Assembly (NCBI RefSeq): GCF_000195315.1
Contig: NC_015389.1
Span: forward strand, 1,178,001-1,242,000
DNA: 64,000 nucleotides
Origin: Coriobacterium glomerans PW2
Lineage (GTDB): Bacteria; Actinomycetota; Coriobacteriia; Coriobacteriales; Coriobacteriaceae
Direction of reading: 5' to 3'
Position 1 is the first letter of the stretch, and each line of letters opens with the position of its first letter. Both the position numbers and the translations under genes were made by a program. The notes beneath the pieces are model-generated. The model was given only the letters and a program-made list of their open reading frames with translations, was not told the origin of the DNA and made no database searches. This document shows positions 6,681 to 9,621 of this stretch, one piece after another.

Positions 6681-9507
6681 TCACCTCCGCCTGCGCGCGA
6701 GTCCGGCTGTCAGCGCGCGCAGCCCGCAGGCCAACGCGATCGCGGCGCCGCCGCCCTCCGCTACGGTGAGCGGCGAGGAGGCCCCGGCTGAGGGAAGCTC
6801 CGGGGTACGGGTGTCCGCCACGGCGACGCGGAAGGAGCCGTCGGGGCACACCGGAGCGGGCGAGCCCTCATCGGGGTAGCGGCCCTGCTCGTCGGCGACG
6901 AACACGGTGACACCGGAGGTGTCGGCGACGATGCGCCAGGGTCGGGTGGCCAGTTGGTAGCCGGACGGGGCGCGCGTCTCGCTCAGCAGGTAGGTCCCGT
7001 GTCTGATCCCGGCGATGAGCGCGACACCGCTGTCGTCGGTCTCGGCCGTGCGAGCGGTGCCGCCGCCTTCCGGCTCCAGCGAGAACCCCGCGCCGGCCAA
7101 GGGCGCGCCACCTTCGGCGTCGGACTTCTCGATCCGAAGCGTCACCGTGGGGATCCTCGTGTTGATCACCGTGATCGCGGCCCCCCGTCGAGTGACGGCC
7201 ACCTCGTATCCGGCCCGCTCCGGGACGAGACCCCCGACCGATACCTCCCGGGCTGTGTAGGAGATCTCCCCGGTTGCGGCGGTCGCGGTCGGCATGCCCG
7301 CGAGCTCGACCGACCAGCCGCCGGCGGCGTCGAGCTGGCGAGTCCCGAGGACGCCGGATGCGCCCGGCTCGGTTCCGCTCCAGCTGAGCTCGACGACCAC
7401 CGCGGCGCGCTCCGCCTCGGCGGTGTCCGGCCATGACTTGGAGACGCGGAGGTCCTCAACAGGCGCGCCGTACTCGTTGACGAAGGCGACCCGCGTCTCG
7501 ACTCCGCCGATGTCGACCTCGGCGGAGTCGGACAGGCTAAGCGCTCCGGTGCCGACGCGCACCTGCGCGGCCACCGTGGTCGAGGCGACTGCGTATCCCC
7601 GCTCGGTCAGGATCGTCCGGCCGGTGGCGGCCCGCGAGAGCCGCCAAGTGCAGGTGACCTCGTCGACGTCCTCGTCCAGGATCCCCCCTGCCGGCGTCGT
7701 CTCCGTGGCGTTGGAGAAAGTGAGGGCCGGCAGGGCGCCGGAGCCCGACTCGATCGAGAACGACCCGGCTAGATCGATCCGATCCCGGCTCGTCAGGCGC
7801 GACAGCCCGGTGAGGGTCTTGGTGATCGTCAGCTTGCCGGTCGCCGCGCTCACCTCGTTGGTCGCCGTCACCGTCTGGGGGCGCCCCTCACCAGTCGCAT
7901 CGGGGCGTCTGGCCGTCGCCGAGCCGTTATCGCCGCCGGTCACATCGTTGGTCCAAGAGGTCGAGAACGCCGAGGGATCCCGATCCGGTGCCCCGGTCTC
8001 GCTGAAGCGCACCCGTGTCCCCTCGGGCAGCCCGCGAATCGAGACCGCGCGATCCGGCAGCGCCGCGATGCCGGTCATCTCGCCGCGAGAGGGATCGGCG
8101 GCGTCCGGGGTCACCCTGAGCTCGGTCGCGCCGTCGGCCAGACCGCGCGCCGGATAGCTGGGATGCAGAACTGCGCCGGCAGGCAGCTCGAGGTGGGCGG
8201 AGAAGGTGAACGGCTCGCTGCGGTAGCGGTCGGCGTCGGCACCGGAGAGGCGCTTCACGAGGCCGACCTGCGCCGTGCGGGAGACATAGACCGTGAAGAT
8301 GGAGTGATGGGGATCGCCGCCGTCCCATGACAAGCTCATGGAACCGTCGTGGGCGCGCGTGTAGTCATATGTCGCGAACGGGTGGCCCGGATCCGCCTTC
8401 TCGGTGGAGCTCCAGGGATCGGTATCACCCTGATAGGCCGCTTTGTACGCCTCGATCCTTGTGATGTGATACTGATTCTCGTCGATTGCATCTACTGTGA
8501 TGTTCTGAACACCGAGGTTGTTGCCAACGTAGTACATTGTATCGCTCTTGGCGATCTGCTTGCCGGAGTCAGCATCGATCACCTCGGTGATGACCGCACA
8601 AGGGGTTGGGCTCGAACTGGTCGGAGGGCAAAAATACTGAAGGAACCACTCCGAGACACGAAAGTGCAAAATCGGATTCTTGGAATCGACGAGCGTGTCC
8701 TGCAGGTAGTAGAACACGAACTGCAGGCCGCTCCCGTCGCCGTGCACCCCGGTCCACTCGCCTGTCTCCTCGGGCATGAACTCGATCTGACCGTCCGCGG
8801 CCACCCTGATACGCGCTATGTCGGTGCCCGTGCGCGATTGAGTATTTCCGATATTACCCTGGAGGGGGCCGTAGTCTATCCCCCCATCCTTGCCCTTCAG
8901 GCTGAGCTTCCAGAATGTGAAGTCTCCTTCAATCGTGCCGTCGCCATTCCAGTAGTTGCGAGGCAGCTTCGCTATGTCCTCGATTACGGCACCTGACTCC
9001 CCTTTCGCATTCGCGAGATCAACCTGAAAAGGATCATGCAACCTGTCTGCGCCGTAGCGGATGGCGCTGAGCGTCGTAATCCCTCGAACATCGCGTGGAC
9101 CTGCATCATCTGAAACCCGATCGGGTGCGTTGCCCGCCACGCCGCCCTCTGAAACGGAATCTTTGTCGGCCGCTGAACTCGCATGCCCGGCGGGTGCTGT
9201 GCTGGACTTGCTGGCAGGCTTCTCTCCAGCCTCGGATGCGTTCGCCTTCGCAGAGCTGTCTGCGACGCGACCAGAAGCGGCTTGATCAGCCGAATCGTCG
9301 ACGCCGGGTTGGTCCTCAGTCGACCTCAGGGAAGAGTTGGACCCCCCCCCCGATCACGGGGGTATCGGCGAAGCCGGAGGAGAGCAGGGTCGCGGCGCAG
9401 GTGATCATGATGAGGAGGATGACCAAAGCGGTCATTGGGCGACGATGCGCAATCTTTTTATCGGAATCCTTCGTGCCATGTGAGAGAGGTTGGAGCCACC
9501 GTCTCAT
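6681..9507 (-). CDS. Cna-B/SpaA-type surface protein, split by a G10 tract (possibly phase-variable)
   Basis: Two adjacent frames make one gene. The first starts at 9507 behind GGAGG and encodes a basic N-terminus plus a hydrophobic signal segment (residues about 25-41), then stops after 63 residues. The second continues to 6681. They are offset by exactly one base, at ten consecutive G (9351-9342). With nine G the frame reads through as 941 residues. After a Ser/Ala/Glu-rich spacer come a large adhesin-like domain with two close cysteines, Cna-B-type domains (DLRVSKSW; TLRIEKSDAEGG...ETRAPSGY), and a C-terminal LPSAG sorting signal, hydrophobic stretch and RRRR tail. These features indicate a secreted, sortase-anchored wall protein. 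No sortase is in the window. As written the gene is out of frame: either an OFF phase variant or a homopolymer sequencing error. Confidence 0.8.
9342..9351 (-). repeat. G10 homopolymer just after the signal peptide
   Basis: Ten consecutive C on the plus strand (G on the coding strand) cover codons 53-55 plus one base, immediately after the predicted signal peptide. Nine or twelve G restore one continuous frame; ten or eleven give stops within a few codons. This is the classic position and composition of a contingency-locus tract. Confidence 0.75.
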
Positions 9508-9621
9508 GATCGACCTCCACGTAGGCTTCAGCCTGAGCCTGCTATCTTCCTATGCGAACACCAGTACGGCAAAGCCGTATCATCGATAGCCTTTGAATGG
9601 AATCTTCAACAATTGCTTTTA

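Follow-up and report, generated by a model that had tools for sequence, protein, structure and literature searches.

The window analyzed here, a 64-kb stretch of the Coriobacterium glomerans PW2 genome, contains two adjacent reading frames that meet at a run of exactly ten G, the sole run of at least eight G within these 64 kb (Table 1). The upstream ORF opens at ATG 9507; its n-region is basic, and a hydrophobic core and an end resembling a cleavage site (ALVILLIMITCAATLLSSGFA-DTPVI) follow. These features identify it as a Sec signal peptide on sequence inspection and by homology to the signal peptide of a paralog, and the ORF enters the tract after 52 codons. The main frame (9341-6681) lacks any start bearing its own signal peptide. 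No promoter was found in a scan 5' of ATG 9507, and the neighboring genes are, by inspection, pyr (pyrimidine) genes and a wzm/wzt-like ABC transporter pair.

Table 1. Features of the tract-interrupted surface-protein gene (window coordinates)
Feature	Position	Strand	Remarks
Shine-Dalgarno sequence GGAGG	9514..9518	minus	6 nt 5' of ATG 9507; from sequence
5' ORF segment, 52 codons, Sec-type signal peptide (ALVILLIMITCAATLLSSGFA/DTPVI)	9352..9507	minus	paralog homology
G10 homopolymer tract, proposed slippage switch	9342..9351	minus	ON would require n = 0 mod 3
Out-of-frame tail at G10, VQLFPEVD then stop	9316..9341 (stop 9316-9318)	minus	
Main frame, surface protein body	6681..9341	minus	886 codons + stop
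N-terminal module, fold unknown	8262..9119	minus	
Cna_B domain (PF05738)	7161..7448	minus	23.5 bits, cut-off 22.3
SpaA prealbumin-like domain (PF17802)	6900..7139	minus	61 bits, E 1.3e-16
C-terminal sorting signal: LPSAG (6797-6783), hydrophobic stretch, ARRRR tail	6684..6797	minus	from sequence

Only tract lengths of n = 0 mod 3 fuse the signal-peptide frame with the main frame. At G10, translation proceeds past the tract as GGGVQLFPEVD to the stop at 9316, giving a product of 63 aa (MRRWLQ...SGFADTPVIGGGVQLFPEVD); at G11, PTLP is read past the tract before a stop is reached. At G9 the two frames join into a product of 52+3+886 = 941 aa, and G12 joins them as well. The assembled state is OFF because G10 is not n = 0 mod 3, and no other upstream frame rescues it, that phase being closed by a stop directly 5' of the tract. 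An earlier note on this DNA had described two frames offset at ten G just behind the signal peptide, which proved correct to the base, and the translations bear out the consequences it drew, namely, 941 residues at nine G, joined frames also at twelve, stops within a few codons at ten or eleven, and OFF as the captured state. The 819 residues it gave for the body hold for the first GTG-to-stop ORF, whereas the whole open frame spans 886 codons. The arrangement matches that expected of a contingency locus, with a tract near the 5' end of the coding sequence whose length (at least about 8) makes it slip-prone, and a length mod 3 that sets full-length versus truncated product while the remainder stays intact.

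In the C-terminal part of the protein, the Cna_B and SpaA domains both score above their curated cut-offs, and the nearest sequence relatives in the PDB are collagen-adhesion and pilus proteins, which match mainly the SpaA region. An adhesin role is suggested by these domains. The N-terminal module was found only in the window gene and its paralog when a profile of it was searched against 400 Coriobacteriia genomes, and a single-sequence AlphaFold model of this module was unusable (pLDDT 40.6). The earlier note had called the protein sortase-anchored through LPSAG. This motif is indeed followed, by inspection, by a hydrophobic stretch and a positively charged tail (AAIALACGLRALTAGLARRRR), and the genome encodes four sortases above the Pfam cut-off plus one weak match, none of them near the window gene; the strict LPXTG pattern, however, does not apply because the fourth residue of the motif is A, not T. 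The paralog reads LPSTG, and two other surface genes of this genome (L037 and L044, discussed below) read LPGTG. Taken together, these features make sortase-mediated anchoring of the window protein to the cell wall likely, although not certain. The locus is not a sortase-dependent pilin cluster, in which a dedicated sortase gene would sit next to the pilin genes, the nearest sortase lying more than 600 kb away.

The paralog (G000:C1 250773-253424, within L072:3992-6931) is 49% identical to the window protein over 870 residues and consists of a single unbroken frame of 979 aa, with no G tract at the corresponding place. Local alignment of the two signal peptides gave a score of 72, which was reached by 0 of 2000 shuffles, and the best score among five other signal peptides of the genome in the same comparison was 41; the matching positions at the N-termini comprise RW, HR, GFAD.P and GG. 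A BLASTP search with the short window signal peptide did not return the paralog, and a nucleotide alignment of the 5' regions of the two genes failed to reach significance, its score being equaled or exceeded by 27 of 300 shuffles. A paralog that carries a homologous signal peptide, has no tract and is read in one frame implies that the two frames in the window are halves of one gene.

Long G/C runs stand out across this genome, which is a single contig of 2,115,681 bases. Up to length 7, each further base multiplies the run count by 0.12-0.25 (267 kb sampled), and geometric extrapolation from these shorter runs predicts about 1.1 runs of at least 10 in 2.1 Mb, whereas the genome holds 13, of 10 to 13 bases each (Poisson P about 3e-10), so that the long runs form a separate class. 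Of these 13, four are at the 5' ends of the roughly ten SpaA or LRR_5 genes, with a P of about 2e-7 for 900-bp zones that serves as a guide only because the zones and the gene list were picked after inspection of the data. Several of the remaining tracts of at least ten G are intergenic or beside tRNA genes and have no obvious switch role. The tracts at L046 (beside a tRNA-like sequence) and L041 (near a CRISPR-like array) and the other intergenic runs were rejected as switches for want of a split frame.

Some runs occupy other kinds of position. The longest in the genome, G13 (L038:4030-4042, genome 415.5 kb), lies within an AAA_14 ATPase reading frame. A G11 run (L033:5055-5065, genome 38.05 kb) is located 8 bases 5' of the ATG that starts an ORF of about 171 aa resembling a membrane protein, in the position of the ribosome-binding site, where a change in length might tune translation. 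The space between an LRR_5 surface gene and a second gene for a secreted protein holds an inverted pair, C10 and G11, 31 bases apart (L042:4005-4056, genome 546.4 kb), and a sortase gene follows about 2.6 kb downstream (549.1 kb).

Other candidate switches in the same genome differ in architecture. At L037, G11 falls in the 5' codons of an ORF with GGGAG 5' of its start, ahead of a 910-aa LRR_5/SpaA/LPGTG frame, and the state is OFF. At L034 (G10; L034:3903-4220, genome 124.3 kb) and L044 (G12; L044:3897-4284, genome 985.8 kb), the tract is within a short leader ORF 5' of an LRR_5/LPGTG surface gene, and an identical 12-base sequence (CTCCTAGAAAAG) follows both tracts. In both, the in-frame leader ends at a TGA sharing bases with the surface gene's ATG (ATGA), so a switch at these loci would act by translational coupling, and the leader ORFs are possibly phase-variable leaders of this kind. 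The leader is ON at L034, but the surface gene, which encodes a signal peptide, is interrupted at codon 64 by an in-frame TGA; at L044 the leader is OFF. Finally, a G10 tract (L047:3992-4001, genome 1477.99 kb) sits at the 5' end of a 559-codon frame for a multi-pass membrane protein that looks glycosyltransferase-like by eye, has no Pfam match, and would need n = 2 mod 3 to be ON.

The genome set contains one genome for the genus Coriobacterium, and no orthologue of the window gene was found in a protein search of 61 relatives, which returned only C-terminal SpaA-region matches, or in a scan of the relatives' genome contigs. In other Coriobacteriales, among them relatives from the human gut, tracts of at least ten G nonetheless recur where frames for secreted or surface proteins begin. 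These include a GH25/ChW protein (L092), where the tract comes shortly after the signal peptide, an F5/8 type C protein (L115), where it is inside the signal peptide, and VWA proteins (L095 and L113), L096, L109, L112 (LRR_5) and L126, all with the tract at the 5' end. Signal-peptide frames accompany 12 of 39 tracts in relatives versus 10% of random window positions, a crude comparison in which the control came from another genome. Left out as likely assembly artefacts were very long poly-G stretches at 692 kb of G033:C6 and contig-end tracts (G014:C27 and G015:C33). In one Collinsella relative, G11 occurs mid-gene and out of frame in a D12 class N6-adenine DNA methyltransferase (L101:2500-2510), a candidate phase-variable gene.

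Two Collinsella families allow tract lengths to be compared between genomes. In the L109 family, the tract is inside the signal peptide and is G10, out of frame (OFF), in four genomes, including Collinsella aerofaciens, and G9, in frame (ON), in a fifth; the downstream frame is intact in all five, and dN/dS is 0.2-0.35 among the diverged alleles compared. At the sequence level, this family shows frame-flipping length changes while the coding sequence stays under selection. In a Flp-like pilin family (L098-L100 and L139-L168), nested starts (ATGcATG) precede a G9/G10 tract, such that the first ATG is in frame at G9 and the second at G10, and at one site whose flanks match between two genomes, the tract is G9 in one and G10 in the other (L144 vs L140).

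Contingency loci of Campylobacter and Neisseria toggle surface components through intragenic poly-G/C tracts. The window gene shares with them an intragenic G-tract of similar length, but the genes and the phylum are unrelated. The lex2A repeats of Haemophilus influenzae belong to a short ORF that precedes lex2B and is coupled to it, a layout that the L034 and L044 leader ORFs resemble. The ON/OFF state of lex2A is set by repeat number mod 3 (PMC6479036); unlike the window gene, this system uses tetranucleotide GCAA repeats and concerns an LOS glycosyltransferase.

The closest precedent comes from pilin genes of Bifidobacterium breve UCC2003 (bbr_0113a/b and bbr_1889a/b), in which G10/G11 separates a Sec-signal ORF from an LPXTG ORF; heterogeneous tract lengths were measured in DNA, loss of one base turned the gene ON, fusion of the frames was associated with observed pilus-like structures, and ON lengths were enriched in mice (PMC9187656, which also mentions the poly-G/C contingency loci of Campylobacter and Neisseria). 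As in B. breve (PMC9187656), the tract in the window lies between a signal-peptide ORF and the ORF for the body of a sortase substrate, the downstream ORF lacks start signals of its own, and the bearer is an Actinomycetota gut symbiont. In contrast, the B. breve switch belongs to the class Actinomycetes and operates in pilus operons with a dedicated sortase, whereas the window gene is a lone gene with an LPSAG motif in the class Coriobacteriia, with a likely insect host; slippage was measured in B. breve, while for the window gene we infer it. The switch proposed here is thus of a known kind, but in another class, on an unrelated gene and outside a pilus cluster.

A GeneTack survey of frame transitions assigned those at homopolymers within surface genes to phase variation, kept translational coupling as a separate class and named no Coriobacteriia case in its main text (PMC3711429). 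Our literature search, which covered few subscription papers, likewise found no homopolymer switch reported for Coriobacteriia, so that poly-G switching in this class is apparently unreported. This agrees with the earlier note, which knew of no established example in the class; the exact Bifidobacterium precedent (PMC9187656) was absent from it.

Assembly error, pseudogene formation, transcriptional slippage and a neutral run are each, in our assessment, less probable than a phase-variable switch. Many assemblies are least reliable in their homopolymer counts, and even in a finished genome a count of ten G may err by one base, a warning reinforced by the annotated G11 of B. breve UCC2003 where most cells carried G12 (PMC9187656); the real tract might then be fixed at G9 (or G12) and the gene permanently on. 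We find this improbable, given that a tract of 9-12 G would still be slippage-prone, that the genome holds 13 such runs, four of them at surface-gene 5' ends, and that several Collinsella assemblies independently contain out-of-frame tracts of a comparable kind. A recent one-base insertion in a decaying gene, with the intact paralog doing the job, would fit the existence of that paralog and the in-frame TGA of L034, another member of the set. Against decay, however, stand 886 codons without a stop, and hence no second lesion, together with a dN of 0.47 and a dS of 1.53 between the window gene and the paralog over 885 codons, with dS near saturation. Moreover, the break falls exactly within the 10-base G run and not elsewhere, and homologous OFF alleles in Collinsella are still under purifying selection, all of which leads us to rate a pseudogene as very unlikely.

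Long homopolymers can cause both RNA polymerase and ribosomes to slip, and programmed transcriptional slippage (or ribosomal frameshifting) on G10 would provide a fixed full-length fraction per cell with no heritable switch. Tract length, however, differs at homologous sites of close relatives with an ON/OFF outcome, which points to slippage at the DNA level, and heterogeneity in B. breve was found in the DNA itself (PMC9187656); we therefore think it unlikely that these processes explain the locus, although they could operate alongside a DNA switch. The intergenic position of several G10+ runs in the genome would accord with an unstable tract that is a mutational by-product devoid of an adaptive role. 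Such a neutral microsatellite appears unlikely to us in view of the clustering of tracts where SpaA/LRR surface genes begin, which is far above chance, and of the similar placements that recur across the order.

We consider it probable, with good but incomplete confidence, that the window contains one Cna_B/SpaA gene for a secreted, cell-wall-directed surface protein under slipped-strand phase variation at the poly-G tract. The proposal of the earlier note, one gene split by a slippage-prone tract, is upheld by the paralog, by the excess of long runs and their clustering at 5' ends, and by the length differences in Collinsella; the frames, the tract, the paralog, the genome-wide enrichment and the length variation at homologous Collinsella tracts are all shown by the sequences. 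In the proposed mechanism, slippage of DNA polymerase would add or remove one G or several. Lengths of 9 or 12 G would bring the signal peptide and the body into a common frame, and the protein, of 941 aa at 9 G, would be exported, probably anchored by sortase, and might serve in adhesion; with 10 or 11 G, translation would stop a few codons past the tract, leaving a product of roughly 60 residues. As assembled, the genome would represent an OFF state of the window gene.

Coriobacterium glomerans, with a genome of 2.11 Mb (PMC3746427), is described as a midgut symbiont of plant bugs (PMC4260922). The window gene would be one of a set of poly-G switches that also comprises three other surface proteins and, possibly, the glycosyltransferase-like membrane protein, and the set would create cell-to-cell surface diversity in the insect midgut, perhaps with a host benefit. 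Evenly balanced, in our view, is the wider reading that Coriobacteriaceae possess a lineage-wide poly-G contingency repertoire on surface proteins, unreported so far, with at least three architectures taken jointly: a tract in or after the signal peptide (window gene, L109 family), a coupled leader ORF (L034, L044), and nested starts (the Collinsella pilin).

Poly-G switching in Actinomycetota is experimentally known from bifidobacterial pili. If the reading advanced here is true, commensal and mutualist Coriobacteriia would vary their surface as host-adapted pathogens do, by means of poly-G switch genes that would be hidden in annotations as two ORFs or pseudogenes.
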